Origin: Eubacteriales bacterium
GTDB taxonomy: Bacteria; Bacillota; Clostridia; Lachnospirales; Lachnospiraceae
Length of the DNA stretch: 64,000 bases
Direction of reading: 5' to 3'
NCBI GenBank assembly: GCA_030524175.1
Contig: JAUNHC010000011.1
Coordinates: forward strand, 62,001-126,000
The notes under the pieces: generated by a model
What the model was told of the DNA's origin: nothing
What the model saw: the letters and a program-made list of their open reading frames with translations, nothing else
Databases searched by the model: none
Program-made: the position numbers and the translations under genes
Shown here: positions 11,106 through 32,162 of the stretch, in pieces
Layout of the letters: the number at the start of each line of letters is the position of its first letter
How positions within the stretch are numbered: position 1 is the first letter of the stretch

Positions 11106-11179
11106 GATATCAGGGGGCACGACACTGTTTAACCCTGGCGTCATTATCAATATTGTTATATAAAAAACGGAGGTGCCAA

Positions 11180-12151: not shown

Positions 12152-12196
12152 ACCAACGGGAATGATACAGCAGATGTATGGAGGGAATCGTAAAAC

Positions 12197-13036
12197 ATGA
12201 GAGAATATACATTAGGCCTTTACGAAAAGGCTATGCCCCCGGAGCTTACCTGGGAAGAGAAGCTGACGGCAGCACGGAATGCGGGATACGATTTTTTGGA
12301 AATCAGCATTGATGAGACAGATAACAAATTGGCCCGGCTTGACTGGAGTAAAGAGCAGCGGCGGGAATTGGCAGAGCTTATGGATAAGACCGGCGTTCCC
12401 ATCAGAACCATGTGCCTGAGCGGGCACCGCAAATATCCTCTGGGAAGCAGCAACCCGCAAATCTGTGCCAGAGGAATGGAAATTATGGAAAAGGCAATCC
12501 GGCTGGCAGAGGATTTAGGCATCCGTATCATCCAGCTTGCCGGGTATGACGTTTATTATGAGGATTCAACCCCGGAGACAGTGGAGCGGTTTGGGAAAAA
12601 CCTGAAAAAGGCAGCTCTTATGGCAGCTAAAGCCGGGGTGATGATGGGCTTCGAGACTATGGAAACAGAGTTCATGAACACAGTTGAAAAAGCCATGGCA
12701 TATGTCAAAACAGTCAACTCCCCATATCTGGGAGTATATCCTGATATGGGAAATATTACAAACGCAGCGGTCACTTACAATTCTGATGTCCTGAAGGATA
12801 TTGAAAGCGGTGCGGGGCATCTCTGTGCCGTTCATCTGAAAGAAACAGTACCGGGAATATTCAGGGAAGTTCCTTTCGGTACAGGCCACGTGGACTTTCC
12901 TTCCGTGATATCAAAGACATGGGAACTGGGAGTACGCAGGTATGTGACAGAATTCTGGTATACAGGAAACCCGGAATGGAAAAAAGACCTTGATTTTGCA
13001 GCCAACATGATGCGCCCTCTCCTGGATGCACAATAA
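12197..13036 (+). CDS. ulaE: L-ribulose-5-phosphate 3-epimerase, UlaE/SgbU type
   Basis: Converts L-xylulose 5-phosphate to L-ribulose 5-phosphate. It is a 279-residue TIM barrel close to UlaE throughout. GLYEKAMP at the N-terminus, LDWSKEQRRELAELM, CLSGHRKYPLGS and IIQLAGYDVYYED are near-diagnostic. The expected metal ligands are Glu153, Asp183, His213 and Glu252. It follows the oxidoreductase gene after 45 bases with a GGAGGGAATC ribosome binding site. It is placed correctly between the L-xylulokinase-like enzyme and the 4-epimerase. The GTGHVDF loop is also conserved. The assignment is strong by motif content, though the true substrate could be a related ketopentose phosphate. Confidence 0.9.
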   Translation: MREYTLGLYEKAMPPELTWEEKLTAARNAGYDFLEISIDETDNKLARLDWSKEQRRELAELMDKTGVPIRTMCLSGHRKYPLGSSNPQICARGMEIMEKAIRLAEDLGIRIIQLAGYDVYYEDSTPETVERFGKNLKKAALMAAKAGVMMGFETMETEFMNTVEKAMAYVKTVNSPYLGVYPDMGNITNAAVTYNSDVLKDIESGAGHLCAVHLKETVPGIFREVPFGTGHVDFPSVISKTWELGVRRYVTEFWYTGNPEWKKDLDFAANMMRPLLDAQ

Positions 13037-17030: not shown

Positions 17031-18569
17031 ATGAAGGTACTTCTGGCAGACGATAATCCGCTGATTTTAAACAGATTTGTGAAAATGGCAGAGTGGAAGA
17101 ATTATGGTTTTGACACAGTTCTTACAGCTGCAGACGGAATAAAAGCATGGACTGAGTTTGAAAAGCATAGGCCGCAGCTTGTAATTGTGGATATCCAGAT
17201 GCCCAGAATGACAGGCATTGAGCTGGCTCAGAAAATTTTTGATGAAGGGGCAGATACGTTTGTATATTTTTTAACAAGCTACGAAGAGTATTCTTATGTT
17301 AAATCTGCGCTGGATTTAGGGGTATGCGGCTACCTTCTTAAGCATGAAACTAAAAAGGAGAACCTGGAAAAAATACTGATGGAGGTGCAGCTGGAAATAA
17401 AAAAAAGGAAGCTACACAGTAGGTTTACTGCAGAGGCTTCTTTGCGGGCACTTGTGCGAATGCTGAGAGACGGAGCCGTTTCAACAGACGAAATCTGTGA
17501 GTATGAGCTTAGTCTTCCCGACAGGTACAATTTATTTATGTTGGAACAGGATCATATTTATCCGATTATGGCAGAAATCTTCGACTGTGAGACAATGGAG
17601 ATTGAAGAAGCACCTTTGATAAAGTATGTCTATCATGTGATCAACAAAGCAGCTGCGGTGATACATACCGGGAAATTCCAATATCTGCTTTTAGTAAAGT
17701 CAGGTGTTCCCGTCACTGAGACGGCCTATGAAATAAAAAAAGAACTTGGCATACAATTCCGTACGACATTCACTGTGCTTATCATTGCCGAGCAGGCATC
17801 CATTGCAGTATGCATGGAGAAATTAAGAAAAAACAACGATATTGCGAAACAGAAATATTTTTATGCACGTTCTACTGTGGCCCACGGGGATTACATTGGC
17901 ACAACAAGGCATATATCCCGGGGATGGGATACATTTAAGGCTGACTGTTGGATGAAGAATAAAGAATTTGCAAAAGTGAGTCGCTGGATGGATGAAACTT
18001 TTTTTCTTTCGTTCGAGACAAGAGATGAAAAAAGACTGGGGGAATTATGCGGATATTTTTCCCGTCTTCTCTTGCAGTACCACAATAGAATTGCCCATTG
18101 TACCACAGGTCTTCCATTTATGGCATATGACCGGCAGGCTCAGGAATACTGGTACGATGCTAATTCTATTTACCAGTGGATAAAACAGAAATTTGCGGAG
18201 CTGGTGTTTATACTGGATAATCCTTGTGTGAACAGATATTCAGAGATTGTAAATCTTACTATCGAATACGTGAACAGGAATTATACAAATAGTGATTTGG
18301 GGTTGGAGCTTATTGCTCAGGAATTGAAAATCAGTGCCAACCGACTTAATGTTATTTTTAAAAAGGAGACAGGTGAGACAATCTGGAAATTGATTATCAG
18401 GGTAAGAATGGAGCGGGCAAAGGAACTTTTGAATATGGAAGATGATAAAGTGACTGAAATCTGCCGTAAGACAGGGTATAAGAACATTTCCTATTTTTCC
18501 AAAGTATTTAAAGATACATATGGACTGACACCTCTGGAATACAGAAGGAGAAAACATTATGAAATTTAA
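17031..18569 (+). CDS. YesN-type response regulator with AraC DNA-binding domain
   Basis: A 512-residue cytoplasmic transcription regulator. The receiver domain spans 1-125, with acidic residues at 7-8, phospho-acceptor Asp54 in VIVDIQMP and the conserved Lys in GYLLKHE. The middle is a poorly conserved linker region. The last 100 residues are two AraC helix-turn-helix units (LGLELIAQELKISANRLN; VTEICRKTGYKN), ending in the classic YFSKVFKDTYGLTPLEYR-type signature. ATG 17031 follows GGGGGGAT. Its stop overlaps the start of the kinase by 11 bases. YesMN systems generally control carbohydrate uptake genes. Candidate targets are the dehydrogenase/epimerase/transporter locus starting at 20716 and perhaps the divergent ceramidase-like gene. 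Confidence 0.9.
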   Translation: MKVLLADDNPLILNRFVKMAEWKNYGFDTVLTAADGIKAWTEFEKHRPQLVIVDIQMPRMTGIELAQKIFDEGADTFVYFLTSYEEYSYVKSALDLGVCGYLLKHETKKENLEKILMEVQLEIKKRKLHSRFTAEASLRALVRMLRDGAVSTDEICEYELSLPDRYNLFMLEQDHIYPIMAEIFDCETMEIEEAPLIKYVYHVINKAAAVIHTGKFQYLLLVKSGVPVTETAYEIKKELGIQFRTTFTVLIIAEQASIAVCMEKLRKNNDIAKQKYFYARSTVAHGDYIGTTRHISRGWDTFKADCWMKNKEFAKVSRWMDETFFLSFETRDEKRLGELCGYFSRLLLQYHNRIAHCTTGLPFMAYDRQAQEYWYDANSIYQWIKQKFAELVFILDNPCVNRYSEIVNLTIEYVNRNYTNSDLGLELIAQELKISANRLNVIFKKETGETIWKLIIRVRMERAKELLNMEDDKVTEICRKTGYKNISYFSKVFKDTYGLTPLEYRRRKHYEI

Positions 18570-20370
18570 TACGGTAACGAAAAAAATCATGGCGATGATA
18601 ATCGGTATCAGTATAATCGTACTATGTGTGTTGAACATTGTTTTTCCTTCTGTCTTTTACAGGGTAATGAAGCCTTATTTGCAGAAACAGGTATCCAGTA
18701 TTGTAGATGCAAATGCACTGAGACAAAGCTATATCTGGAGGAATAACAGTCAGCTGTATTTGATGGAAAACAGTGATGAATTGCAGCAGCTTATTTTGGA
18801 TTATTATAACGGGCAAGGCCGGAAAGAGCAAGTCAGGGAGGAGATACTCACACATCTTCCTGTTTTAAACAATGGTATCCGAAGCGGTATAGCCACAGCT
18901 GAGAAAAAGTACGGATATATAGTATCAACAAATTATCTGCTTTTGTTTACCGACAAAGGAGATGTGTTTTATAATGAACAGGCAGCAGAACCGGCGCAAG
19001 CATTTTTGGAGTCTGACTGGTACGGGAGTGTTGACAAAAAGGCTGATTTTTTTGGCCATCTGCCTATTATAGAGAGCGGCCGGCAACCAGATCAGAAATA
19101 TTTCAGTGTGGTTGCCTCCTTCCGGGCAGGAGAGATAAACTGTTTTTCCGTAAATCTTGTGAGGGATGAGGATATCCTTGCCCAATGTGAAGAATTTGAA
19201 GAGTTTGGAATTGAGGATTATATAATTTTCTGTGGCAGTGAGATTCTTTACAGGAATTTAAATGAACAGTCCGTAATTGAACTGGAACAATATCCGGAAT
19301 ATATGTTTGAGGGAGACCAGTATGAGACACGCGTATGGGAGGATGGGAACCAAACAAATTTTGCAGTCTTATGTACCTATAAAAAAGAAGATTATTGGCT
19401 GGCTGTGAATGTCCCGAAGAATGTACTGCTGGCACCGTACCAGGAGGCGTTTCACTATTTTCAGCTTTTTCTGGGGATACTTGTGGCAGTTCTTCTCCTG
19501 CTTTTTTGTATTGCTTTAAAGGGCACATTGATTAGGCTGACAAGGCTGGAAAAGAAAATGAGAACCATACACAGCGGAAACTATGAGGTCTGCATAAAGG
19601 ATAAAAGCAGAGACGAAATCGGCAGCCTGGCTGATACTTTTCAGGTGATGCTGGAGAAAATAAGGGAGGACATGAAATATAAGGAGCAGATGCAGTATAC
19701 CTTGATGGTATCGGCCATAGACCCTCATTACATTTATAATACTCTTAATACAGTAACAGCTCTTGCCGAGCTGGGGCGTAACGAAGACGTTGTCACAGTG
19801 AACGATGCCTTGATCGGAACGCTTAAGGACCGTCTGCGCATGAAGAATTACAAAACTTTCGATACAGTCAAAGCTGAGCAGCAGGCATTGGAACAGTATA
19901 TGGTTATACAAAGTTATCTTTGTTTTCAGAAAATAAAGTATACATTTGACGTTTCTGCAGGAGACCAGAATCTGCAGATTCCCAAAAATGTGATACAGCC
20001 GCTGGTGGAAAATTCAATCAAACACGGAATATTGTGTAAGGAATATGGAGAGTCGGAAAATCAGGCCAGTCTGACAGTAACAGTCAAGCGGCAGAAGGAG
20101 GATATTTTTATATGGGTGCAAGATAATGGGAGGGGAATGGAGGAAGATACCATCAGGAACTATTTTGATCCTGACAAGGTGAAAGCCAGGAAACCGGAAG
20201 AAGATATGGCTCATATTGGGGTGTACAATGTGTTGATGCGCCTGAATTATTTGTATCAGGGAAGATATGATCTATCGGTAAAAAGCAGTTTGGATAGGGG
20301 GACAAGGATTTGTCTGATTCTTCCCATTGACCAGTCCGGACGGGATAAAGACGGACTTGCAGACTGCTGA
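18559..20370 (+). CDS. YesM-type sensor histidine kinase with large extracellular domain
   Basis: A 603-residue membrane kinase. Membrane helix 1 is at about 10-32, an extracellular sensor at about 33-297, helix 2 at about 299-320 and a HAMP domain after it. The phospho-accepting His390 is in DPHYIYNTLN, the His_kinase family of YesM/LytS type. The ATPase N-box is QPLVENSIKHG, with DNGRGM as the G1 box. It overlaps the response regulator gene by 11 bases. The ectodomain has no motif I recognise. It presumably senses an extracellular sugar or a binding-protein complex. Confidence 0.9.
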   Translation: MKFNTVTKKIMAMIIGISIIVLCVLNIVFPSVFYRVMKPYLQKQVSSIVDANALRQSYIWRNNSQLYLMENSDELQQLILDYYNGQGRKEQVREEILTHLPVLNNGIRSGIATAEKKYGYIVSTNYLLLFTDKGDVFYNEQAAEPAQAFLESDWYGSVDKKADFFGHLPIIESGRQPDQKYFSVVASFRAGEINCFSVNLVRDEDILAQCEEFEEFGIEDYIIFCGSEILYRNLNEQSVIELEQYPEYMFEGDQYETRVWEDGNQTNFAVLCTYKKEDYWLAVNVPKNVLLAPYQEAFHYFQLFLGILVAVLLLLFCIALKGTLIRLTRLEKKMRTIHSGNYEVCIKDKSRDEIGSLADTFQVMLEKIREDMKYKEQMQYTLMVSAIDPHYIYNTLNTVTALAELGRNEDVVTVNDALIGTLKDRLRMKNYKTFDTVKAEQQALEQYMVIQSYLCFQKIKYTFDVSAGDQNLQIPKNVIQPLVENSIKHGILCKEYGESENQASLTVTVKRQKEDIFIWVQDNGRGMEEDTIRNYFDPDKVKARKPEEDMAHIGVYNVLMRLNYLYQGRYDLSVKSSLDRGTRICLILPIDQSGRDKDGLADC

Positions 20371-20715
20371 CTTTATCTTTCAGGAAAGCCGGTAAAACAA
20401 AGTAGAAGGAAAATTCAGGACCAGGAAGAATAGAATAATGTTTAGTGTGTTATCCCCGGTATTTTGTCTTTTAGAGACAAGGTGCCGGGGATTTTTATGT
20501 TAGAGAGAGTAATCTGGTTTGCTCCGCTATCCGTGTGAAGACCAGAAGAATACCCCCATAATTCCAAAGCGGCGCCCTGTTTTGCTATATGTGCGGATGA
20601 TATAATTTTTATTGAAAAAGCATAAAGCCAACAAAAAAGAGGCCTCTGATTTGGTGATTGTGCAATAAAATAAGTCTTTGGGACTGAATATACAGAGATG
20701 GAGAAGGGTGACAGG
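20371..20715. other. Intergenic region before the dehydrogenase/epimerase locus
   Basis: About 345 bases. It holds the terminator of the first two-component system (20452-20497). Upstream of the dehydrogenase there is only a weak promoter guess, TTGTGC at 20659 followed by AATATA near 20687. An AraC-type activator may be needed there. No small gene was seen. Confidence 0.35.
20452..20497 (+). terminator. Strong intrinsic terminator after the first YesMN system
   Basis: ATCCCCGG pairs with CCGGGGAT, enclosing a second stem TTGTCT/AGACAA, and TTTTTA follows. It lies 82 bases after the kinase stop. Confidence 0.85.
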
Positions 20716-21780
20716 ATGAAAGGTACGATGAAGGCACTAAGAATGTATGCACCATATGATTTCCGGCTGGAGGAAGTGCCTGTTCCGGAAATTGGAAAGG
20801 ATGAGATATTGATCAAGGTATTGGGGTGCGGAATCTGTGCAGGTGATGTAAAAACCTATCACGGAGGGCAGAGAGTGTGGGGAACAAGCCCGGAGAATGC
20901 TTATATTGAAGCACCTTGTATCGGCGGACATGAGTTTTACGGTGAGGTGGTGGAGACAGGAGAGAATGTAACACAGGTGAAAGTGGGACAGAAGATTTTG
21001 GCTGAGCAGATTCTTCCTTGCGGGGAATGTAAATTCTGCCGTGAAGGAAATTACTGGATGTGTCAGCCTCACCATATTTACGGCTTTAAGGAGGATGCCC
21101 AGGGCGGATTTGCGGAATATATGAAATTTGCTAAAAACAGTGTTATACATATCCTGCCGGATGATATTACACCGGAGCAGGCAACACTTGTTGAGCCGTA
21201 TGCCTGCGGAATGCATGCGGTGGAGAGGGCTGAGATCGGCCACAATGACGTTGTAGTAGTCAGCGGACTTGGCGCTATTGGGCTGAGTATGATCAATGCT
21301 GCGAGAAATCTTTCTCCTAAAATGCTGATTGGCCTGGATTTAAGAAAGAACCGCCTGGACAAAGCTTTGGATTTCGGCGCTGATCATGTGTTTAATCCAT
21401 CTGAAGAAGATGTTGTGGCGAAAATCATGGAACTTACAGACGAATATGGCTGCGACGTATACATTGAAGCATCCGGCAGTGAGCCGAGTGTGCGCCAGGG
21501 GCTGAATATGGTTAGAAATATGGGCCGTTATGTCCAGTTCGGGGTGTTCCCCAAGGATGTCACTGCTGACTGGAATATTATCGGAGACACAAAGCATATG
21601 GACATTCTGGGTTCTCATTTGTCCGGGCATTGTTATAATGCAGTGATTCAGGGGATTGTAAACGGGTCATTGAAAACCGATGGAGTTATCTCTCATATAT
21701 ATCCCCTTTCAGAGTGGGAAAAGGCATTTGAGACAGCAGAAAAAGACCCTGCAGCATTTAAGGTTGCACTGATTCCCTGA
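20716..21780 (+). CDS. Zinc-dependent medium-chain polyol/sugar dehydrogenase
   Basis: A 354-residue medium-chain alcohol dehydrogenase. ATG 20716 is chosen over 20698 because GGAGAAGGG precedes it at a good distance. The catalytic zinc ligands are Cys41 (GCGICAGD) and His72 with Glu73 (GGHE). The structural zinc cysteines are 102, 105, 108 and 116. The Rossmann loop GLGAIG is followed by an acidic residue in GLDLRKNRLD, indicating NAD preference. Relatives oxidise polyols or keto-sugars. It heads the locus with a ketose 3-epimerase and transporter, so it probably interconverts a polyol and the ketose used by the epimerase. The exact substrate is unknown. Confidence 0.85.
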   Translation: MKGTMKALRMYAPYDFRLEEVPVPEIGKDEILIKVLGCGICAGDVKTYHGGQRVWGTSPENAYIEAPCIGGHEFYGEVVETGENVTQVKVGQKILAEQILPCGECKFCREGNYWMCQPHHIYGFKEDAQGGFAEYMKFAKNSVIHILPDDITPEQATLVEPYACGMHAVERAEIGHNDVVVVSGLGAIGLSMINAARNLSPKMLIGLDLRKNRLDKALDFGADHVFNPSEEDVVAKIMELTDEYGCDVYIEASGSEPSVRQGLNMVRNMGRYVQFGVFPKDVTADWNIIGDTKHMDILGSHLSGHCYNAVIQGIVNGSLKTDGVISHIYPLSEWEKAFETAEKDPAAFKVALIP

Positions 21781-21890
21781 AAATAAACTTGGTTGGACGA
21801 AGTGAAAGGAAATACGCAGATATCAGAGGTTAAAATATATTTTTACCCCGACATTATATATGCCGGATGAAACAGGAGGATAGAAATAGC

Positions 21891-22775
21891 ATGAATAAAT
21901 TAGGTATCTTTATGAATTTCTGGGAGAAAAAATGGGATGCTGATCACATTAAGTATGTAAATAAAGCAGCAGATATTGGTTTTGATATCCTGGAATTTCA
22001 GGCACAGCCGCTTTTGGATATGAGTGAGCAGAGGATGAAGGACATTAAGAAAGCGGCAGATGACAGAGGGATTGAGCTGACCTACAGTCTTGGCCTTGAT
22101 CCGGCTTATGATGTGGCAAGTGCAGATGATAAAGTGAGGTCAGGAGGAATTGACTATCTTAAACGGATAGTGGAGAGAGTCGGTTTCATGGGCGGAAAGG
22201 TGATATCCGGTGTCAGCTATGCCGGCTGGGGTGTCACGGACTATATACTGGAAAGCGGGAAGGAAGATATTCTGGAACGAAGCGTTGACAGTATGAGACA
22301 GATCATCAAAACTGCTGAGGATAATGGGGTTGTATACTGTGTGGAAGCAGTAAACCGTTTTGAGTCTGTGCTGATCAATACTGCAGTGGAAGCAGTAGAA
22401 TATGTAAAACGTGTGGACAGCAAAAATATCGGTGTTCTTCTGGACACTTATCACATGAATATTGAGGAGAATAATATCGGTGATGCCATCCGTTATGCAG
22501 GAGATTACCTGGTGAATTTCCATACCGGGGAAAATAACAGGCGTGCACCGGGACGGGGGCATATAGACTGGGATGAAATTTTTAAGGCGTTAAAGGATGT
22601 GGATTATAAAGGTCGTATTGTGTCAGAACCCTTTGTCATGATGGGGGGAGAAGTGGGGAAAGACATTAAGGTATGGAGAAACCTTGACATTCCTACAGAG
22701 GAAAGTATTGATGCTGAGGCAGCGTTCCTTTTGAATTTTGAAAAGCAGAAATTGCAGCAGTATGGACTGGCTTAA
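21891..22775 (+). CDS. Ketose 3-epimerase, D-allulose/D-tagatose 3-epimerase family
   Basis: Epimerises free ketohexoses or ketopentoses at C3 (for example D-fructose/D-allulose or D-tagatose/D-sorbose). The 294-residue TIM barrel starts at ATG 21891 after AACAGGAGGA. With this start, the metal ligands Glu152, Asp185, His211 and Glu246 fall at the residue numbers I recall for the Agrobacterium D-allulose 3-epimerase, which supports both the start and the family. Conserved stretches include LGIFMNFWEKKWDADH, NRFESVLINT, LLDTYHMNIEE, HTGENNRRAPGRG and EPFVMMGG. It is flanked by two zinc polyol dehydrogenases and an RbsABC-type transporter. Together these could convert rare ketoses and polyols into common ones. 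Preferred sugar unknown. Confidence 0.87.
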   Translation: MNKLGIFMNFWEKKWDADHIKYVNKAADIGFDILEFQAQPLLDMSEQRMKDIKKAADDRGIELTYSLGLDPAYDVASADDKVRSGGIDYLKRIVERVGFMGGKVISGVSYAGWGVTDYILESGKEDILERSVDSMRQIIKTAEDNGVVYCVEAVNRFESVLINTAVEAVEYVKRVDSKNIGVLLDTYHMNIEENNIGDAIRYAGDYLVNFHTGENNRRAPGRGHIDWDEIFKALKDVDYKGRIVSEPFVMMGGEVGKDIKVWRNLDIPTEESIDAEAAFLLNFEKQKLQQYGLA

Positions 22776-22866
22776 AATTTCCGTTTCAGGGTTTTTATAA
22801 GTCAACAATTTAAAGAGGGAAACAAAAACTAAAATAAATTTAAAAACATGTATGGAGGGAAAGAAC

Positions 22867-23874
22867 ATGACAAAAAATTGGAAAAAAGCAGCAGCAATTG
22901 TGACAACGGCGGCTATGTGTGCATCAATGCCTGTAATGGCAAGTGCAGCAGAGAAAGAGAATCCGGGAGAGGGATATAAGGTGGGCTTCTGCCTTCAGTC
23001 CATGGATGTTGCCGTTTGGAATACCATGTCTGAAGGTATGAAAGCAAAGGCTGAGGAATTAGGCGCTGATTATGACTGCCAGGTGGCGAACAATGATGTA
23101 TCCACCCAGATCGCCAACATAGAAAATATGGTGGCCCAGGGATATGATGCTATCATTATCCACGCTTTCGACCGTGAGGCATTTGCGGATGTTGTGAAAG
23201 AGGCTTTAGATGAAGGTGTAGTTATCTGTGCATATGATGATAATATTGTAGATGCATCCACAGGCGAGCCGGTAAATTATCAGCTTACCTTCCTCTGTGA
23301 CAATTATGAAATCGGCTACCGTGTAGGCAAGATGGCTGCTGAGTGGACTAAGAAGGCATTCCCGGACGAGGAAAAGCTTGAATTTGGACTGCTCTGCCAC
23401 AGAGAATTCCAGTATCAGTGGGATCGTGTAGACGGTATTGAAGATGCCATTAAAGAATTTGACCCGCGTATTGAGATCGTGGAAGAGCTGGAAGGCCTGG
23501 TAACTGAGGACGGTGTTAACGCAGCAGAGACATGGATGCAGTCTTATCCGGATATGAAAGGTGTTGTGGCTACCAATGATACAGCGCTTTTAGGTTTCTC
23601 TGAAGCATGGAAGGCAGCAGGTAAGGATCTTAATGATGATACCTTTGGTATGTTCGGAAATGACGGTGTTAAGGATGCCATTGATTTAGTTGCTGACAAT
23701 ACAATTCTCCGGGGAGATGTAGGACTTGACGTTTATAACGGCGGCGCACAGGCACTGGAAGCCTGCGTTAAAGTACTCAACGGCGAAAAAGCAGAAAATG
23801 TTGTAATGCCTATGGTTGATGTTACTGTTGATACAGCCGATGAGTGGAAGGCAGACGAAAATCTGTACAAATAA
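22867..23874 (+). CDS. Sugar-binding protein, RbsB type (second transporter)
   Basis: A 335-residue Peripla_BP_4-type receptor. ATG 22867 is used because GGAGGG lies just upstream, inside the alternative ATG at 22852. The signal peptide (KKAAAIVTTAAMCASMP...ASAAEKEN) contains a Cys but not in a normal lipobox. The likely cleavage is a signal peptidase I site ending in ASA. Ligand-domain stretches are QVANNDVSTQIANI, VICAYDDNIV and VATNDTALLGF. Sequence differs clearly from the receptor at 5337, so the ligand differs too. The gene lies between the epimerase and its ATPase. Confidence 0.9.
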   Translation: MTKNWKKAAAIVTTAAMCASMPVMASAAEKENPGEGYKVGFCLQSMDVAVWNTMSEGMKAKAEELGADYDCQVANNDVSTQIANIENMVAQGYDAIIIHAFDREAFADVVKEALDEGVVICAYDDNIVDASTGEPVNYQLTFLCDNYEIGYRVGKMAAEWTKKAFPDEEKLEFGLLCHREFQYQWDRVDGIEDAIKEFDPRIEIVEELEGLVTEDGVNAAETWMQSYPDMKGVVATNDTALLGFSEAWKAAGKDLNDDTFGMFGNDGVKDAIDLVADNTILRGDVGLDVYNGGAQALEACVKVLNGEKAENVVMPMVDVTVDTADEWKADENLYK

Positions 23875-24003: not shown

Positions 24004-25494
24004 ATGCCAGAAGATAAAATCGTATTATCATTAAAAAATATCTCAAAAAAATATCCGGGAGTTCAGGCCTTGGATGATGTCTCCATTGATTTTCGTGAAG
24101 GTGAGATCCATTGTATCATCGGGGAAAACGGCGCAGGGAAATCTACATTTATCAAGATGATTTCCGGGGCCAATGAGCCGGATTCCGGGACGATTACATT
24201 TATGGGAAGAGTTTATAATACTATGACTCCAAGACTCTCCAAGGAGCTTGGCATTGAGGTTGTATATCAGGAATTTAATCTGGCGGAAGATTTATCAGTG
24301 GCTGAGAACGTTTTTCTCGGCAATGAAATCAGGAAAAATGGGATGGCTGATATGAGAACCGTAGAGAAAAAGACTAAGGAAGTCTTTGACAAAATGAAAG
24401 TAAATATTGACTGCAAAAAAACTGTAAAAGATTTGACGGTTTCTTATATGCAGTTTGTAGAGATTGCAAAAGCATTGTCCCGCAACATTAAAGTCTTAAT
24501 TTTAGATGAACCGACAGCACCCCTTACTGAGGATGAGGTGGATAAGCTTCTGGACTTAGTCCTTGATTTAAAACATCAGGGTTATACTATTATTTATATT
24601 TCTCACCGCCTGAATGAATTGTTCAGGATAGGAGACAGGGTGACTGTTCTGAGAGACGGAAAAAAAATCATCACAGATGATATTAAGAATATGGACACTG
24701 ACAAATTGATTGCATATATGGTAGGCAGGGAGATGTCATTTGAATATCCTAAACGCACCCATGATATCGGTAAAGTAGTATTTGAGGCCAGAAATATTGT
24801 TGCAGACAAGGTGAATAATATTTCTTTTGCAGTTCATGCAGGTGAAATCCTGGGTATCGGAGGCCTGGTGGGCGCAGGCAGGACAGAGCTTATCAGGGCA
24901 ATTTTCGGAGCCGACATTATGCATGCGGGACATACATATCTGGAGGGAAAGGAAATTAAAATTCGCCATCCTAAGGATGCTGTGGAATCCGGTATGGGGT
25001 TTGTCACCGAGGACCGTAAACGGCAGGGACTTCTTCTTGAGGACAGTATTTGTGCCAATATATCTCTGCCGATTTTAAAGAGAATATCGAAAATGGGTGT
25101 GATCGACAGGAAAAAGGAACATGAGATCGCCAGCCACCAGAAGGAGATACTCAGCATCAAAACACCGTCTCTTGATGTGGCGGCTAATTCTCTGAGCGGC
25201 GGAAATCAGCAGAAGGTGGTACTGGCAAAATGGCTGGCAGCAGACTGCCGGGTTATTTTTATGGACGAGCCTACCAGGGGAGTGGATGTAGGAGCAAAGC
25301 AGGAAATTTATAAGCTGATGAACGAACTGGCCGGGCGGGGAATCGGTATCGTACTTATTTCATCAGAAATGGAGGAGCTTCTTGGTATGTCCGAACGCCT
25401 TATTGTACTTCATGAGGGAAATATGATGAAGGAACTGCACAAAAGTGAGTTCAGCCAGGAAACAGTAATGCAGTATGCATCAGGGATTCAGTAA
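24004..25494 (+). CDS. Sugar ABC transporter ATPase, RbsA/MglA type (second transporter)
   Basis: A 496-residue double ATPase of the CUT2 family. Walker A GENGAGKST is at 40-48 and Walker B LILDEPTAP is in the first half. The second half has the family-typical altered P-loop GLVGAGRTE, signature LSGGNQQKV and FMDEPTRGVD. The start follows CAGGGAGGCAGCT. It is fully motif-intact and is a useful reference for the degenerate relative at 27605-29014. The permease gene follows after 31 bases. Confidence 0.93.
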   Translation: MPEDKIVLSLKNISKKYPGVQALDDVSIDFREGEIHCIIGENGAGKSTFIKMISGANEPDSGTITFMGRVYNTMTPRLSKELGIEVVYQEFNLAEDLSVAENVFLGNEIRKNGMADMRTVEKKTKEVFDKMKVNIDCKKTVKDLTVSYMQFVEIAKALSRNIKVLILDEPTAPLTEDEVDKLLDLVLDLKHQGYTIIYISHRLNELFRIGDRVTVLRDGKKIITDDIKNMDTDKLIAYMVGREMSFEYPKRTHDIGKVVFEARNIVADKVNNISFAVHAGEILGIGGLVGAGRTELIRAIFGADIMHAGHTYLEGKEIKIRHPKDAVESGMGFVTEDRKRQGLLLEDSICANISLPILKRISKMGVIDRKKEHEIASHQKEILSIKTPSLDVAANSLSGGNQQKVVLAKWLAADCRVIFMDEPTRGVDVGAKQEIYKLMNELAGRGIGIVLISSEMEELLGMSERLIVLHEGNMMKELHKSEFSQETVMQYASGIQ

Positions 25495-25525
25495 GATAAA
25501 CAGCAGGAACCGGGAGGGATACAAT

Positions 25526-26488
25526 ATGAAATTTCTAGATTTATTTAAAAAATACGGGGTGGTTTTTATATTGGTGATTCTTATTGTGGTATTCACCATT
25601 CTGAATCCATCATTCCTTACAATGAAAAATGTTGTAAATATTTCCAAGCAGATTGCGATCATGGCAATTCTTTCTGTGGGCATGACATTCGTACTTCTCA
25701 CAGGGGGCATCGAGCTGTCTATGGGCTCTGTGGTGTCTCTGGTAGTAGTGTGTATCAGTATTTTTGTTACAAACGCAGGGATTCCGGTGTGGGCATCCAT
25801 GATCCTGGCGCTGCTTATCGCTACGGCAATCGGATTTATCAATGGAGTTATCATCGCAGAAATAAAGGTTCCGCCGCTTATTATGACCCTTGGCATGCAG
25901 ATATTTCTGTATGGATTTACCTATACGATCTGCGGGGGACTTCCTGTTTACGGCATACCAAATTCACTGAAGTGGGTGGGGCAGACTTACCTGTTCGGGG
26001 TGATTCCGGTATCCGCATTTATCATGATAATGATTATTGTGATTGGCTATTTTATTTTGTCTAAGACTTATCTGGGAAGATATTTTTATGCGATCGGAAG
26101 TAATGAGGACGCAGCAACTTTGTCAGGAATAAACTCAAACCGGATCAGGATTCTTGCCTATACCTTCTGCGGATTTCTGGTAGGAATTGCAGGGATCGTG
26201 ATGCTGGGACGTATAGGAAGCGGTCAGCCCGGAGCCGGAGACGGCTATGAGATGGACGTCCTTACGGGCTGTGTACTGGGCGGAGTAAGCTTAAACGGAG
26301 GTAAAGGAAATATCGGTAAGGCATTCGCAGGTATCCTTGTGATCGGTGTTTTGAGCAATGGTATGTCCATGGCAGGAATGAATGCTTTCATGCAGAAAAT
26401 GGTCAAAGGGCTTGTGCTGATCCTGGCTGTTATACTTGACAGTCTGCAGTATGTTAAGCTGAGGAAAAAAGTAAAGGTAATTGCATAA
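25526..26488 (+). CDS. Sugar ABC transporter permease, RbsC type (second transporter)
   Basis: A 320-residue polytopic membrane protein of the CUT2 permease family. ATG 25526 follows CGGGAGGGAT and is preferred over frames starting inside the ATPase gene. Family motifs are GGIELSMGS near residue 68 and GGVSLNGGKGN in the C-terminal third. It acts as a dimer with the ATPase at 24004 and the receptor at 22867. The sorbitol-dehydrogenase-like gene follows after 17 bases. Confidence 0.92.
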   Translation: MKFLDLFKKYGVVFILVILIVVFTILNPSFLTMKNVVNISKQIAIMAILSVGMTFVLLTGGIELSMGSVVSLVVVCISIFVTNAGIPVWASMILALLIATAIGFINGVIIAEIKVPPLIMTLGMQIFLYGFTYTICGGLPVYGIPNSLKWVGQTYLFGVIPVSAFIMIMIIVIGYFILSKTYLGRYFYAIGSNEDAATLSGINSNRIRILAYTFCGFLVGIAGIVMLGRIGSGQPGAGDGYEMDVLTGCVLGGVSLNGGKGNIGKAFAGILVIGVLSNGMSMAGMNAFMQKMVKGLVLILAVILDSLQYVKLRKKVKVIA

Positions 26489-26505: not shown

Positions 26506-27543
26506 ATGAAGAATGAGACTGTATATATGAAAGAGGCCGGAACCATGTTTATACGGGAGATCGAGGTGCCGGAACCAAAGGAAAACGAGGTTCTTGTGAA
26601 TATTAAATATTGTGGGATCTGCGGCTCGGACGTGCATTATTATGATAACGGAAGAATTGGGGATTACATAGTGGAAGGAGATTTCACACTGGGACACGAG
26701 GTGGCAGGCGAGGTGGTAAAGACCGGAAGCGGAGTTAAAAATCTGAAGCCGGGAGACAGAGTTGCCCTTGAGCCGGGAATCCCTTGCGGTAAATGTGAAT
26801 TCTGTAAACAAGGTAAGTATAACCTCTGTCCTGATGTGATATTCTTTGCAACCCCTCCTGTCCAGGGTGCACTTCAGAATTATGTTGTACATCCTGCCGA
26901 CATGTGTTTTCTGCTTCCGGATAATGTATCTATGGAGGAAGGGGCTCTTGTAGAACCGCTGTGCGTGGGGCTTCATGCCTGCCGTCAGGGAAACGTACAG
27001 CTTGGAGACAGTGTGGTGATCCTGGGAGCCGGCTGCATCGGACTTGCGGCACTCCTTTCGGCTAAGGCAATGGGAGCCAGCAAGGTTGTGGTTGTGGATT
27101 TGTTTGAGAAGCGATTGGAATTTGCCAAAGAAATGGGAGCTGATCACTGTGTAAATGCGGCAAAGGAGGATGTTTTTGAAGAGTGCCGGAAGATATTCGG
27201 AAGCCGGGGAGCAGACATTGTAATAGAGACTGCAGGTTCACCCAAGACCATATATCAGACGCCCATGCTGGCCAGGCAGGGAGGAACTGTAGTGCTGGTA
27301 GGGATTGCGGTAAACAATGATCTTACCTACAATTTCGGGCAGGTGATGTCAAAGGAACTGACCATCAAGTCAGTATTCCGGTACCGTAATCTTTACCCTG
27401 TGGCTATTGCAGCTATTGCCGACGGAAGTATAGATGTAAAGAAAATGATCACACACAGATTTCTGTTCCACGATGCAAAAAAAGCCTTTGACACTGTTAT
27501 TTCAGATGCACAGAATGTGGTGAAGGCTGTTATCGAATTATAG
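26506..27543 (+). CDS. NAD-dependent sorbitol/xylitol dehydrogenase-like zinc enzyme
   Basis: A 345-residue polyol dehydrogenase that oxidises a secondary hydroxyl of sorbitol-, xylitol- or iditol-like polyols to a ketose. The catalytic zinc ligands are Cys39 (CGICGSDVHYY) and His64 with Glu65 (GHEVAGEV). The structural cysteines are 94, 97, 100 and 108. The motif ALEPGIPCGKCEFCKQGKYN is characteristic of sorbitol dehydrogenases. The GAGCIG nucleotide loop is followed by VVVVDLFEKR, whose Asp favours NAD. The start follows GGGAGGAAAAG. It is last in the transporter operon. A polyol may therefore be imported, or made by the partner dehydrogenase, with the 3-epimerase acting on the ketose. Confidence 0.88.
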   Translation: MKNETVYMKEAGTMFIREIEVPEPKENEVLVNIKYCGICGSDVHYYDNGRIGDYIVEGDFTLGHEVAGEVVKTGSGVKNLKPGDRVALEPGIPCGKCEFCKQGKYNLCPDVIFFATPPVQGALQNYVVHPADMCFLLPDNVSMEEGALVEPLCVGLHACRQGNVQLGDSVVILGAGCIGLAALLSAKAMGASKVVVVDLFEKRLEFAKEMGADHCVNAAKEDVFEECRKIFGSRGADIVIETAGSPKTIYQTPMLARQGGTVVLVGIAVNNDLTYNFGQVMSKELTIKSVFRYRNLYPVAIAAIADGSIDVKKMITHRFLFHDAKKAFDTVISDAQNVVKAVIEL

Positions 27544-27582: not shown

Positions 27583-27627
27583 TGAAGGCTTTGTAAGGCT
27601 GGTTTTATTCCGGCCTTACAGAGCCTT
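27583..27627. terminator. Bidirectional terminator hairpin between convergent operons
   Basis: A stem of about 19 bp, GAAGGCTTTGTAAGGC (27583-27598) plus TGG, pairs with CCG plus GCCTTACAGAGCCTTC (27612-27627). The loop is TTTTATT. The right arm overlaps the last codons and stop of the minus-strand gene, so it serves both convergent transcripts. T-tracts are poor on both sides. Confidence 0.65.
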
Positions 27628-29014
27628 CTTCCAGGATAAGGCGGCGGTTGGCCACAGTGATACTGTCCAGTAAGTCGGCAGAAAGAATGATAACTGCTAT
27701 TTTCTTTCCCTGGAGCATGTGGATCAATTCAAGGATATGTTTTTTTAAATAAATGTCAGTATTATAAAAGGGCTGTATAATGAAGACAGCCTTTGGATTT
27801 ATAAGGGCGACACGGTAATAGATCAGGTTGTACAGTGAACTTGAGCTAAGACCTTCCAGTGCAGGAGCGTAGATATCATCTCCAATGACGTCATAATACT
27901 CCCGTTGTATGCTTTCTTTTACAGCACGGGATACATTGATGCGCCTGATCTTGCTTTCCATGCGGAAGCAGAAATTGTCAATGTAATTCATGTCATAAAA
28001 GAGCATGGAGGCCAAGGGATTTTCTCCTATAACTGCAATCTGGATACCGATGTCATCTTCGTAATTACGGTGGGATGATATATCAATTATTTCATATAAA
28101 TCCTTTAAGTTTCCGTGGTTGTACTGCAGACATTCCATGAATTCTTTTTGCAGTTCTTTTGTTTCATCGTAGAGAACAAGGCATTCACCCTGGTTAATAT
28201 CGAATGAAAATTCCTGACATTTTTGTGTACACAGGTGCCTTATGTGCAGTGCAGTATCCGCGTAGGCAGGTGTCACAAGAGGCTCTGCGGACAGGAGTGA
28301 TTGTGAGAATTTTAAGTACCGAAGGGTATCTATTTCACGGCGGTCAAAGCTTTGGATATCTTTTCCGTCTTTCATATATACGATTCTGTCACAGAAGGAA
28401 AGAGACTCCTCATAATGGCTGCAAATGTACAGAAAAGAATAATTTTTCCGGGAGAGCATGGTGAGAAGATCCTTAAATCGTTCAATCTGGGCGCTGCCAA
28501 GAATATCCCCCATGCCATAGAGGACGATCAACTGTGAGCCCTGGGTGATCGCCTTAAGCAGCTCTACAACGCAGCGGTTGAATTCATTGAGCCTTTCACA
28601 GAGAGTATCAGGAGAGAGGTGAAGCTCCAAATTCTCTGTGAGCCATTTGTATTGGCGCAGCAGCGGCTCTCTTCGGATAAAACCGTGGAAGGGCAGGCTG
28701 TTAAGGACATAGATGTTTTCAAGGACTGAAAGGCTGTCAACAAGCTTTCTCTGCTGGTTGAGTATATAGACCTTGTTTAGCTGTTGTTTATTCGGATGGC
28801 GGTTGTTTAAGAGCTTGTTGTTGATATATATTTTTCCGAATTTTACAGGGATGGCACTCCTGAACATTTCGAGAAAAATCTCCACGCCGATACCGTTTAT
28901 AGGAATCAGACCAACGATTTCTCCTTGGTGGATATGAAGGTTCATATCGTCAAGATTGGCTGTGTCCGGACTGTTGGTGATGACATTTATCATACGGAAA
29001 ATTTCTTTTTTCAT
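27605..29014 (-). CDS. Degenerate RbsA-like double ATPase (predicted pseudo-ATPase) linked to a two-component system
   Basis: A 469-residue protein that aligns end to end with RbsA/MglA ATPases but has lost the catalytic motifs in both halves. In half one the P-loop position reads IPINGIGVE (37-45), with no Lys-Ser/Thr. Walker B reads LIVLYGM (about 162-168), with no Asp-Glu. The signature is replaced by LNEFNRCVVELLKA, while the H-loop His200 (ICSHYEES) and the region LSVLEN are retained. In half two the P-loop is LYDETKELQ, the signature is LEGLSSSSL and Walker B is VFIIQPFYN. The reading frame is intact, so it is not decaying. Its start overlaps the kinase stop (ATGA), giving translational coupling. 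It probably binds a sugar permease or the kinase as a regulatory subunit (inference). Confidence 0.82.
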   Translation of the reverse strand: MKKEIFRMINVITNSPDTANLDDMNLHIHQGEIVGLIPINGIGVEIFLEMFRSAIPVKFGKIYINNKLLNNRHPNKQQLNKVYILNQQRKLVDSLSVLENIYVLNSLPFHGFIRREPLLRQYKWLTENLELHLSPDTLCERLNEFNRCVVELLKAITQGSQLIVLYGMGDILGSAQIERFKDLLTMLSRKNYSFLYICSHYEESLSFCDRIVYMKDGKDIQSFDRREIDTLRYLKFSQSLLSAEPLVTPAYADTALHIRHLCTQKCQEFSFDINQGECLVLYDETKELQKEFMECLQYNHGNLKDLYEIIDISSHRNYEDDIGIQIAVIGENPLASMLFYDMNYIDNFCFRMESKIRRINVSRAVKESIQREYYDVIGDDIYAPALEGLSSSSLYNLIYYRVALINPKAVFIIQPFYNTDIYLKKHILELIHMLQGKKIAVIILSADLLDSITVANRRLILEEGSVRPE

Positions 29015-30030
29015 AAGCTTCCCTTCAAAATTACCGGAAGAGTGATCTCCACATCAGTGCCTACATTTTTTATGCTGTGTATGTGAATTCCGTACCGTTC
29101 TCCGAACAGAAGTTTGATACGGTTGTTCACATTGGTGACTGCGATTCCGCCCCGGTTTTGAGACTGTTCGTCATGGTCATATAATATATTTTTGAGAAGG
29201 CGCCTGTTTAGTTTGTCCAGGGCGTCTTTTTCCATGCCCAGGCCGTCATCAATGATATGTATTATGAGATAATCGGTGTTGCATATGATTTTAATCTGAA
29301 GAGTTCCCTTGCCGATTTTCGGTTCCAGTCCATGGTAAATGGCGTTCTCTACAATAGGCTGCATGATGAGCTTGGGCATAAATAGACCGAGGATATTAAC
29401 CTCGCTCTCCGTGTCATAATCCACAGTAAGATTCAGCTTGTCCCCGAACCTGTAATGCTGGATACGGTAATAATTTTCTATGTTATTTAATTCATCCTCA
29501 ATGGTTACCAGTTTATTGATATTGGAGATGGTATAACGGAAAAAGGTAGAAAGAGTTTCTGTCATAATGGCTACGCTGTCCATACCCTCACATACGGCCT
29601 CACTCCGTATACACTCTAATGTATTATACAGAAAATGAGGATTTATCTGGTTTTGAAGAGCCAGGTATTGTGCCTGTTTTTGTGAAAGGTCCAGATATTT
29701 TGACTTGTTAAACCGTTCATTGAGCATGGAAAACAGCAGGCCCATTTCAGGGCTTACTGATAAGTCCTGCCGGAAGATATCTTCGGGGCTGTAGCTGTTG
29801 AGAGAGTCCTGTATAACAGCCATGATCTTTTTTGTACGGCGGTATATTAAGATGTATGCAGAGACTGCCAGTACAATATACGCAGATAAAATCAGAAGGT
29901 ACAGATTTATGGAAAAGTGATGTTTTGCTGTAAGGTTTCCAAGTATTATCAAGAGTATCCCTGAGAACAAGAGGGTGGAAACCATCCACCCGCCGATATA
30001 ATTTGCCAAATATCCTTTTTTCGTATTCAT
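29011..30030 (-). CDS. Sensor histidine kinase with two membrane helices and almost no ectodomain
   Basis: A 339-residue kinase of the YesM/LytS His_kinase type. Helices are at about 15-33 and 42-63, leaving an outside loop of only some 8 residues (KHHFSIN). No HAMP is obvious. The phospho-accepting His132 lies in NQINPHFLYNTLE. The ATPase domain has QPIVENAIYHGLEP, DDGLGM and GGIAVTNVNNR. It starts 16 bases after the response regulator stop and overlaps the pseudo-ATPase start. The lack of an extracellular domain is like intramembrane-sensing kinases that read the state of a partner ABC transporter. The coupled pseudo-ATPase is the obvious candidate link. Confidence 0.88.
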   Translation of the reverse strand: MNTKKGYLANYIGGWMVSTLLFSGILLIILGNLTAKHHFSINLYLLILSAYIVLAVSAYILIYRRTKKIMAVIQDSLNSYSPEDIFRQDLSVSPEMGLLFSMLNERFNKSKYLDLSQKQAQYLALQNQINPHFLYNTLECIRSEAVCEGMDSVAIMTETLSTFFRYTISNINKLVTIEDELNNIENYYRIQHYRFGDKLNLTVDYDTESEVNILGLFMPKLIMQPIVENAIYHGLEPKIGKGTLQIKIICNTDYLIIHIIDDGLGMEKDALDKLNRRLLKNILYDHDEQSQNRGGIAVTNVNNRIKLLFGERYGIHIHSIKNVGTDVEITLPVILKGSL

Positions 30031-30046
30031 AAGAAAAACCTCTTTG

Positions 30047-31654
30047 TCAGCTGTAAATGCGCCGGAATTCGTTGGGCCGCAGTCCAGTGTATTTCTTGAA
30101 ATTTTTATTAAAGTTTTTCAGGTCATTATAGCCTACTTCTTCACATATCACTGATATATTCCAGTCTGTTTCTTTTAATAATTCTTTGGCGTTCTCCATT
30201 CTTACCTGAATGACATATTCTGAAAATGTAATGCCCGTTTCTTTCTTAAACAGAGAGCTGAAATAGCTGGGATTGAAACCTGCCATGGAACTGATCTGCT
30301 CCAGAGAAATACTTTCCTTTATATTTTGTTTAATATAATTCTTTGCTTCCCGTATTGGTTTATTTGCCTCTTGTTTCCTTGCAGTACAAGACAGCTGGTA
30401 GGAATCCAGAATATTTTTTGACAGCAGGGAAAGTACATTCTGCCAGGAACTTTGGTTATCCAGTGCTTTGTAGAAGTTATCCAAAAAGACCTCTTTGTCC
30501 GGAAGCAGGAAGTTATTTTGCTGCATGGTTACCATATACAGGTGGATGATTTCTTTGGACAACTGAAGGATGGAATGTCCTGATATCTCCGGGGTTTGGG
30601 ACAAGTGTTTCTTTAAATAAGTGAAGCTGTCATGCATTTCGCTCTCGTTCAGACGGTCAATGGAAGCGGAAAAGCGTCGGTTGAATTCCTTAACCATGGA
30701 GCTGTCAGGCGTGCCGCCGGTTATATGGGATTCGTCAAGCAGGATATTCGTTCCCAGAACAAGGCGTTGTTCTATGGCAAGCCGGGCAGTCTTGGTGGAG
30801 AGAGAAAGATCCTTGGGTGATTTCTGCACACAGCCCATGCCTAAGGTTACATTCATGTGCTGGAGAACCTCTTTCTGACATAATAAATCATTCAAAAACC
30901 TTTTCATGGCAGCCCGTACCTGTTTCTGGTTTTCCTCTGTATAATTGACAAGAATGTAATAAAAGGATTCTTCCTGGATACAGGCTGAATCATAACATAG
31001 GGTACTGAGCCTGGCAGTGGCAAAATCCTGGATTTTATTGTAGATGTAATCCGTCTCAGCATGCATGGAGCGGTCCAGTCCGTCAGCTTTTATGATGATT
31101 GTCTGAAAGCATCCGTTCTCAAATGAAAAAGAGTAGGTACTGCAAATCTCCTTAAGTGGCAGAGAGGATAAAACAGGAGTGTTTTTAATAAAGGCATCCT
31201 GCAAAAATTCCATGCGTTTTTGGTTGCGGCTGTTTTCCACAAGAAGCTGATACTTTTCTTCATTGGTTATTGCAGAGTGCTTCTGTATGTAGCTGTTATG
31301 TATTTTCGTTAACGTTTCTGTCAGCTCATTTTTCTGTATAGGTTTTAATAAATAATTTTTTACGCCGTAGTGAATGGCATTTTTTGCGTATTCAAATTGG
31401 CGGTAGCCGCTGATGATGATAAATTCAGTGTCAGGGCTGCATTCCTGGCCCCGGCGGATAAGTTCCAGTCCGTCATACCCGGGCATGCGGATATCCGTTA
31501 TGACGATATCCGGCTTAAATTGGCAAATTGCGGTAAGTGCTTCTAATCCGTCATTTGCGATAGCTGTAATCTCCATGTCAAGGTCTTCCCAATCCACCAG
31601 TTTGCTGATAAGATTACAAATTTTCGGCTCGTCGTCAGCAATAATAACTTTCAT
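30047..31654 (-). CDS. YesN-type response regulator with AraC DNA-binding domain (second system)
   Basis: A 535-residue regulator. The receiver is at 1-125, with acidic residues at 7-9, phospho-acceptor Asp54 in VITDIRMPG and Lys in NYLLKPIQ. A long middle region is followed by two C-terminal AraC helix-turn-helix units (ISLEQISSMAGFNPSYFSSL; ISVICEEVGYND) ending YTGLRPNEFRRIY. The start follows TTGGGGGATTTTAC. It is first in the operon with the kinase and the pseudo-ATPase. It is convergent to the sugar/polyol transporter operon, so that locus is the most likely target, alongside its own promoter. Confidence 0.9.
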   Translation of the reverse strand: MKVIIADDEPKICNLISKLVDWEDLDMEITAIANDGLEALTAICQFKPDIVITDIRMPGYDGLELIRRGQECSPDTEFIIISGYRQFEYAKNAIHYGVKNYLLKPIQKNELTETLTKIHNSYIQKHSAITNEEKYQLLVENSRNQKRMEFLQDAFIKNTPVLSSLPLKEICSTYSFSFENGCFQTIIIKADGLDRSMHAETDYIYNKIQDFATARLSTLCYDSACIQEESFYYILVNYTEENQKQVRAAMKRFLNDLLCQKEVLQHMNVTLGMGCVQKSPKDLSLSTKTARLAIEQRLVLGTNILLDESHITGGTPDSSMVKEFNRRFSASIDRLNESEMHDSFTYLKKHLSQTPEISGHSILQLSKEIIHLYMVTMQQNNFLLPDKEVFLDNFYKALDNQSSWQNVLSLLSKNILDSYQLSCTARKQEANKPIREAKNYIKQNIKESISLEQISSMAGFNPSYFSSLFKKETGITFSEYVIQVRMENAKELLKETDWNISVICEEVGYNDLKNFNKNFKKYTGLRPNEFRRIYS

Positions 31655-31742: not shown

Positions 31743-31820
31743 CCTTGCAGATATTTAACACAATTCTAAACGCAATAATATATAATGTCAAGAAAATTGC
31801 TGATGATTAGCATATATTGG
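31743..31820 (+). repeat. 78-base direct repeat, copy 1
   Basis: Matches 32070-32147 over its full length without gaps. The 5' end (CCTTGCAGA..TTTAACACAATT) and the last 37 bases are nearly identical, with a diverged centre. The shared 3' core contains TGTCAAGAAAATTGCTGATG and TTAGCATATATTGG. Copy 1 starts 88 bases upstream of the minus-strand response regulator. Confidence 0.75.
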
Positions 31821-32069
31821 AATGCAATTATGTGAGCGTATAAGTACGGAGCACTCGGCTTTCATGTTTGTTGATCTCTCCCTTATCATATGTGTTTGTT
31901 ATATAAGTTATTGTGGTGTATTGGTCTGAGATATTTGTATATCACACATATAAAAATCTTCAGAAGTCAGGTGATTTCCCCGCCAGTTCTGCGTATTATT
32001 GACGAGGATAGAGGGTGAAATTGTTTTTCTTAAATGGCATTAGAAGAAAAAATATGCAAAAAAAACCTT

Positions 32070-32147
32070 CCTTGCAGACCTTTAACACAATTTCGGGCGA
32101 ATAATGTGTTAATGTCAAGAAAATTGCTGATGTTTAGCATATATTGG
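32070..32147 (+). repeat. 78-base direct repeat, copy 2, leader of the XRE gene
   Basis: Ends 15 bases before the XRE gene start and so probably contains that gene's promoter or regulator site. Conserved ends with a variable middle suggest two functional blocks. It may be autoregulatory for the XRE protein. Confidence 0.7.
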
Positions 32148-32162
32148 TAAGCCGGGTGATTT

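Follow-up and report, generated by a model that had tools for sequence, protein, structure and literature searches.

Kinases that read the state of a transporter are already known, and the system described here is probably a variant of such transporter-coupled sensing. In Bce flux sensing (BceAB-BceS), a histidine kinase without a sensor domain reads an ATP-binding cassette (ABC) transporter encoded by adjacent genes, and the sensing complex coexists with a transporting one (PMC10314905, PMC6978683, PMC7828314). The kinase-bound transporter is the sensing form, incompletely closed on an ATP analogue, and the free transporter does the work (PMC10314905). A functional ATPase is needed for Bce signalling, and the accessible parts of these reports mention no dedicated pseudo-ATPase. 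In the Listeria VirAB-VirRS-AnrAB module, one ABC transporter senses and drives the kinase while another detoxifies (PMC7828314). An importer-related sugar-binding protein is the kinase input of XylFII-LytS-YesN (as related in PMC9769921), and in the transceptors CbrA and Ks-Amt5, and with the S-component/5TMR fold (PMC11109136), a transporter fold acts as the receptor of a histidine kinase. Here we describe a locus in a 64,000-nucleotide stretch of a Lachnospiraceae genome (assembly GCA_030524175.1, contig JAUNHC010000011.1, positions 62,001 to 126,000; hereafter the window), where a YesM-type kinase without a sensor domain is encoded beside a catalytically dead relative of the sugar ABC ATPases, which we call pATP. 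What is new is a partner rule that ties pATP to sensorless YesM-type kinases.

The window is part of contig C77 of a 5.95-Mb genome. Its central features are the pATP operon and a sugar importer:

27605..29014, reverse strand: pATP, a catalytically dead CUT2 (RbsA/XylG-like) double ATPase of 469 residues, assigned by homology, motif comparison and purifying selection in relatives
29011..30030, reverse strand: YesM-type histidine kinase (HK) of 339 residues, Pfam His_kinase and HATPase_c above cut-off
30047..31654, reverse strand: response regulator (RR) of 535 residues, REC plus AraC-type helix-turn-helix (HTH)
22852..23874, forward strand: sugar-binding protein of the importer (PF13407, 149 bits)
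24004..25494, forward strand: genuine CUT2 sugar ATPase of RbsA type, motifs intact, the permease's normal partner
25475..26488, forward strand: RbsC-type permease of 337 residues (PF02653, 117 bits)

The original prediction, made from the sequence alone, had placed the RR-HK-pATP trio at 27605-31654 with HK and pATP translationally coupled. These coordinates are exact, all three frames are intact on the reverse strand, and the HK stop and pATP start share an ATGA overlap. By Kyte-Doolittle hydropathy, on which all kinase topologies given here are based, the window HK has two predicted transmembrane (TM) helices separated by a short loop, and neither Pfam searches nor alignment found an extracellular sensor or HAMP domain in it. 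Its catalytic residues H132, N229 and D261/G263/G265, invariant in kinase alignments, are present.

Two TM helices, a very short loop and no sensor domain make up the topology of intramembrane-sensing kinases, and the position of the window HK beside an ABC transporter is also that of a Bce kinase. However, the window permease is of the RbsC type (PF02653) and not a BceB-type permease with a large extracellular loop. Bce systems differ as well in having an OmpR-type regulator and a kinase that is not known to be of the YesM type, and the YesN-type regulator of XylFII-LytS-YesN is a point of likeness. In the accessible account of XylFII-LytS, the periplasmic component contacts a kinase domain outside the cell, whereas here an ATPase relative accompanies kinases lacking that domain; no sensor domain was found in the window HK, and the pATP gene adjoins the kinase gene. 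The transceptors are fused or homologous single proteins, and what is accessible of their description includes no ABC importer whose motor subunit is dead. VirAB-VirRS-AnrAB is a peptide-antibiotic module, for which the accessible part of the source does not mention loss of ATPase motifs (PMC7828314). The titles and abstract openings listed from an open-access library, outside which most subscription papers fall and several of whose lists were capped (12 of 176 entries in one case, 8 of 36 in another), included no conserved catalytically dead ABC ATPase serving as a kinase partner.

As predicted, pATP is a full-length homolog of the sugar ABC ATPases. It matches the xylose, arabinose and ribose ATPase models over its whole length, far below their cut-offs, scoring 118.8 bits against the xylose model (cut-off 699) with residues 1-467 on model positions 1-484 of 513; the genuine window ATPase also falls below that equivalog cut-off (559.8 vs 699). 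Identity between pATP and the genuine ATPase at 24004 is 20% (E = 2e-26). No full-length CUT2 double ATPase was present among the best 60 of 310 matches to solved structures. pATP resembles the RbsA/XylG CUT2 ATPases (PMC11466899) in length, in the order of its two nucleotide-binding domains (NBDs) and in having an RbsC-type permease in the locus. It differs in that the canonical ATP site is gone and in its genetic tie to a kinase.

Alignment of the window ATPase with pATP revealed replacement of Walker A1 (GENGAGKST to PINGIGVEI), Walker B1 (LDEPT to LYGMG), the NBD2 signature (LSGGNQQ to LSSSSLY), Walker A2 (GLVGAGRTE to DETKELQKE) and Walker B2 (MDEPT to IIQPF), while the Q-loop Gln is retained (LNQQ). 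The second site is already non-canonical in the CUT2 ATPases of these loci (GAGRTE with LTVSYMQ or LPVSKQQ), and likewise in B. subtilis RbsA in the accessible part of one report (PMC11466899). Therefore, what counts is that pATP has lost the one canonical site, formed by Walker A1, Walker B1 and the NBD2 signature. With this refinement, the earlier claim that the catalytic motifs have gone stands for the five motifs named. The one H-loop His that was said to remain is present, although shifted one position later.

To relate pATP to kinases, we searched with a kinase profile, A5, that was built from pATP-linked kinases, so the resulting rule concerns that kinase clade. The profile was run against 200 genomes of the window's family (one per genus code, up to 10 candidates scored per genome, matches listed to about 225 bits) and, at a stricter E-value of 1e-75, against 160 further genomes. 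Five genomes without matches (G258-G262) apparently belong to both sets, which leaves about 355 distinct genomes. Among the matches listed for the 200 genomes were long kinases and 60 kinases without a sensor domain (257-364 residues, one in two frames). All 60 of the latter had a pATP-type gene in their operon, directly 3' in 57 cases and upstream in three (L332, L336, L337); 24 were already known from pATP searches and 36 were newly read. The 160 further genomes contributed 32 short kinases, with pATP directly 3' of 29, upstream of two (L391, L392) and absent from one. Overall, 91 of 92 sensorless YesM-type kinases, including L333, have a pATP-type gene in their operon. As a control, we took 20 long kinases with sensor domains from the same list and read their downstream side only, over about 2.6 kb (1.4 kb in one case). 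None of them was followed by pATP; 11 were followed by a sugar-binding-protein gene and nine by a regulator. A further long kinase, L350, had no pATP within 14 kb. Sensor-domain kinases are often beside a binding-protein gene, and sensorless ones are beside a pseudo-ATPase gene. The system was present in 33 of the 200 and 16 of the 160 genomes, or 49 of about 355, and the source genome holds at least five RR-HK-pATP copies (C77, C21, C96, C54 and C102).

Searches with pATP queries gave a consistent neighbourhood. Across 80 non-redundant loci, for which L049, L225 and L230 were left out, a kinase was directly upstream of pATP in 78, with an overlap of exactly four bases in 31. Regulator genes were present in 77 of these loci, binding-protein genes in 73, active CUT2 ATPase genes in 66 and permease genes in 65, some misses being due to contig ends. 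The importer lies before, behind or divergent from the trio, and this variability implies that the fixed unit is RR-HK-pATP. The synteny of pATP with a kinase, proposed earlier as a check, is therefore kept across relatives. At L086 (Ruminiclostridium cellobioparum), a gene that looks chemoreceptor-like from its sequence (745-residue frame, 10511-12748) lies between pATP and RR-HK. At L128 (7283-11358, Christensenella), a pATP-like gene is convergent with the kinase and overlaps its 3' end on the opposite strand. In single genomes, the regulator (L047, L342) or kinase (L253) frame is split in two, by assembly error or real breakage.

We next consider selection on pATP. In 13 of 14 close pairs of relatives, the ratio of nonsynonymous to synonymous substitution (dN/dS, NG86) of pATP was 0.03-0.12, similar to that of HK and RR and mostly above that of RbsA; the ratio was not computable for pATP in the pair L106/L117. 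These ratios come from pairs other than the window's nearest relatives, for which dS is saturated in pATP, HK and RR. A ratio near 1, which had been named as the mark of decay, was not found. Identity of relatives to the window copy falls to 16-20%, and we rejected confinement of pATP to one genus, as matches extend across several families and beyond the class. Matches to a pATP profile, A3, were split into scores of at least 440 bits and of at most 294 bits. Those fetched from the upper group are kinase-linked pATPs, and those in the lower group are presumed to be transport ATPases, assigned without one-by-one reading. Profile A3 misses the most diverged pATPs, which the kinase-based search recovers. 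pATP is a diverse family under purifying selection and not one in decay.

Loss of the canonical site was nearly general in pATPs. Full Walker A1 was kept in 2 of 85 pATP-type rows (a set that includes repeat fetches, has 74 rows at <95% identity and excludes L049, which is cut), Walker B1 with both D and E in 11 of 85 and the NBD2 LSGG in none. The transport ATPases of the same loci kept Walker A1 in 65/65, Walker B1 DE in 65/65 and LSGG in 62/65, the other three rows being truncated at the edge of the locus. We dropped six ATPase rows that are not ordinary CUT2 transport ATPases (L093_13021, L125_9001, L132, L134, L135, L136), and two presumptive pATPs (L273, L283) proved to be transport ATPases. 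One of the dropped rows, L125_9001 (9001-10491), is a degenerate double ATPase (GDEGRSLSS, LSLVNQR) in a different importer cluster, surrounded by permease and ATPase genes; no kinase was found at this locus, and it is possibly an independent pseudo-ATPase.

The motifs of other pATPs form a gradient. L333 is in the pATP position and has the pATP-type N-terminus MKTELLR, with Walker A1, Walker B1 DE, the H-loop His and LSGGNQQ all intact and Q replacing E in Walker B2. In L328 Walker A1 is retained, but DDT stands in place of DEP and LSGG is missing. Walker A1 without DEP or LSGG was seen in L320 (on the same contig as L121), L122, L316, L319, L326, L334, L339, L340, L346, L347, L349 and L372, and likewise in L383, a relative of L316. 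Several members that keep Walker A1 also have the Walker B1 Asp, and the remaining pATP members read had none of the Walker A1, DEP and LSGG patterns. In a tree of 86 rows, which like our other tree is an unrooted quick tree with many long branches, a single branch parts kinase-linked proteins from transport ATPases, L333 and then L328 are closest to the ATPases, and the dead state changes at least four times. Following the initial step, Walker A1 probably disappeared at least twice. The second NBD appears to be dispensable as well: single-NBD forms of about 240-250 residues (L332, L336 and, probably, L392, known from a partial frame) suggest that some lineages maintain the kinase link without it.

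The kinases themselves vary in what they have retained. Eight of the 92 had no predicted TM helix (L322, L336, L337, L345, L346, L349, L385, L387), a label applied only where the N-terminal region is absent or lacks any hydrophobic segment. The open kinase frames of L345 and L349 themselves start without a TM region, beside the regulator, and in L385 the kinase gene overlaps the regulator gene; the kinase starts of L337 and L387 are uncertain. L039, L040 and L092 (L039 and L092 being the same gene) fell below the hydropathy threshold but were not counted because the N-terminal region is present. The count also sets aside two loci that scored as lacking TM helices: L331, at a contig end and with an unusual N-terminus, and L253, whose kinase is split between two frames. 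Setting aside L346, at a contig edge, seven loci are assessable. In six of these, the sequence read contains an RbsC-type permease gene but lacks an active CUT2 ATPase, and a binding-protein gene is also present in L336, L337 and L387/L391, with a weakly scoring one in L385. In contrast, of 107 loci with TM-bearing kinases (counted without L320, a repeat of L121, and L350, with its long kinase), 89 possess an active ATPase, 14 possess neither gene and four possess a permease only. Of those four, the ATPase of L086 is split between two frames and the L115 and L315 loci are truncated at an edge, so only L262 remains. Fisher's test of 6/7 vs 1/67, the latter built on the 66 ATPase-bearing loci of the 80-locus tally, gave 2.6e-7, although the related loci are not independent and this value is a guide only. 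A TM-less kinase, a permease and a dead ATPase in one operon are hard to explain unless the latter two form a receptor. L270 and L327 have, besides a full importer, an extra permease gene that overlaps the end of pATP.

Conservation and co-variation were used to ask which parts of pATP have been maintained. In an alignment of 94 pATP members, N100 and N347, at equivalent positions of the two NBDs, are invariant, and they are also invariant in 75/75 sequences of the comparison of pATP with ATPase conservation. There, the pATP/ATPase conservation ratio was 0.44-0.63 at Walker A1/A2, Walker B1, the NBD2 signature, the Q-loop and the H-loop, relative to 0.72 for all columns. The stretch following the Q-loop had ratios of 0.90 (NBD1) and 1.09 (NBD2). 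In known NBD structures this stretch lines the permease groove, and it is the presumed docking surface of pATP. Residues E4, R7, Y63, F339 and Y399 are conserved in pATPs and not in ATPases. Evolutionary distances of pATP correlated with those of HK (r = 0.84) and RR (0.82), and the partial distance correlation of pATP with the ATPase was 0.40 vs 0.03 for HK with the ATPase, a pattern as would be expected for a link between two modules.

From the motif loss, the adjacency to sensorless kinases, the purifying selection and the permease-only operons with TM-less kinases, we infer docking and signalling. Our preferred reading, to which we assign a probability of roughly 0.65, is that pATP is a pseudo-ATPase that sits on the RbsC-type permease and acts as the sensory adaptor or receptor of a sensorless kinase. 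pATP would retain the double-NBD fold and presumably the permease-clamping surface without hydrolyzing ATP. It could then replace RbsA on the permease of the neighbouring importer (25475-26488) or on a permease of its own operon. Sugar-loaded binding protein would alter the state of the permease and, with no ATP cycle to reset it, pATP might relay that state to the kinase. The kinase would in turn phosphorylate the AraC-type regulator and induce the transport operon. By analogy with Bce, evolution would here have made the sensing form permanent, as a dead motor subunit of its own. The results suggest that a disabled importer became the kinase's sugar receptor in many gut bacteria. A bolder extension, for and against which we see even odds, is that the complete importer body of binding protein, RbsC-type permease and pseudo-ATPase is a transmembrane sugar receptor that never transports, and that the kinase ceded to it, step by step, the sensor domain and lastly the membrane anchor, becoming soluble, with one permease serving both the live and the dead motor at most loci. 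Such an arrangement would represent a class of split receptor kinase that has so far gone unrecognised. The earlier idea of an ABC ATPase repurposed as a signalling or docking subunit is supported in part by the kinase synteny, the purifying selection and the several loci with a permease and no active CUT2 ATPase.

Several observations weigh against this reading. L333 is a kinase-linked ATPase that retains an intact canonical site. The original prediction had regarded same-position homologs with intact Walker motifs as contrary evidence; L333 is the one such case, and besides it at least 13 pATP members go part of the way by keeping Walker A1. To us, the placement of L333 and L328 in the tree marks where a decay series began and does not refute our interpretation, although it would bear another reading. 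One sensorless kinase (L382/L393, G386:C10) has no pATP and is beside DctM- and TctC-type transporter genes; it may be fed by another type of transporter. An active ATPase is encoded in the same locus as the TM-less kinase L322, and at other TM-less loci the stretches read were limited to 3.9 kb behind pATP (L385) and 5.5 kb on the regulator side (L387/L391). A permease without a local ATPase might also be energised in trans. The NBD1 signature (0.87) and Walker B2 (0.86) are conserved too, with other residues, which means that conserved positions also lie outside the presumed permease face. Distance correlations favour RbsA as the co-evolving partner, since the partial correlation of pATP with the permease (-0.20) is below that with RbsA; permease and RbsA distances are collinear (r = 0.92). 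Hence, we rejected these correlations as proof of permease contact. Moreover, the range for the excess of the pATP-HK over the pATP-ATPase correlation (-0.002 to 0.188) includes zero.

These points leave room for pATP to act on RbsA itself, competing or pairing with the true ATPase to throttle transport while the kinase reads or sets the balance. The active CUT2 ATPase in most of the 80 loci and its partial correlation with pATP fit such a brake, and the accessible part of a Bce report offers a precedent in which a kinase throttles a transporter ATPase (PMC10314905). However, the kinase and not RbsA is pATP's constant neighbour, and at L262, L336, L337, L345, L349, L385 and L387/L391 the sequence read encodes pATP and a permease but lacks an active CUT2 ATPase, which makes this explanation unlikely. 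Next in our ranking, and unlikely as well, is a cytosolic ligand sensor that takes up a nucleotide or sugar phosphate in its NBD fold and regulates the kinase with no contact to the permease. The members other than L333 that keep Walker A1, at least 13 in number, several with the Walker B1 Asp but none with the NBD2 signature, would suit it, as would the single-NBD versions. Yet few parts of the dead members are less conserved than the former Walker A sites (0.48, 0.44), which is odd for a ligand pocket, and the permease-only operons with TM-less kinases would be left unexplained.

The maltose ATPase MalK provides a precedent for signalling from an ATPase to a regulator, MalT. A similar sequestration, in which pATP keeps the RR or kinase inactive and frees it on transport with no membrane receptor, would accord with pATP distances tracking the RR as well as they track the HK. 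We consider it improbable because the association of pATP follows the kinase's missing sensor domain, which regulator sequestration would not need. Finally, the lost catalytic motifs of the window copy could mark a decaying pseudogene or hitch-hiker. We rejected this explanation on dN/dS and leave it a negligible chance: the ratios resemble those of HK and RR, the pATP matches listed have open frames with single stops in few only, and the gene has spread over several families and beyond the class.

If pATP does serve as a kinase's sensory adaptor, it would constitute a conserved pseudoenzyme branch of the ABC ATPases with a defined partner and would account for the signal input of numerous sensorless YesM-type kinases from gut Clostridia. 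The family would also provide a natural gradation between working motors and purely signalling proteins, and would demonstrate the conversion of an ABC importer into a receptor. pATP genes are presumably annotated now as ordinary sugar ATPases, and they should not be counted as transport capacity.

The importer genes of the window belong to a longer transport operon, whose other members are as follows:

20698..21780, forward strand: zinc-type dehydrogenase
21867..22775, forward strand: xylose-isomerase-like TIM-barrel protein
26506..27543, forward strand: second zinc-type dehydrogenase, the final gene of the operon, convergent with pATP

The dehydrogenase and TIM-barrel genes also occur in loci L043, L044 and L051. 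A second two-component pair is located at 17031-20370, consisting of an RR (17031-18569) and a 603-residue kinase with HAMP and a long N-terminal region. The window importer is thus bracketed by a sensor-domain kinase on one side and the pATP kinase on the other. Two similar segments, at about 31744-31830 and 32071-32155, have the common core TGTCAAGAAAATTGCTGATG, which has only these two matches in the source genome at ≤ 2 mismatches. One segment precedes the trio and the other precedes a short open reading frame at about 32163 that appears HTH-like by eye; the two are possibly a duplicated promoter region.

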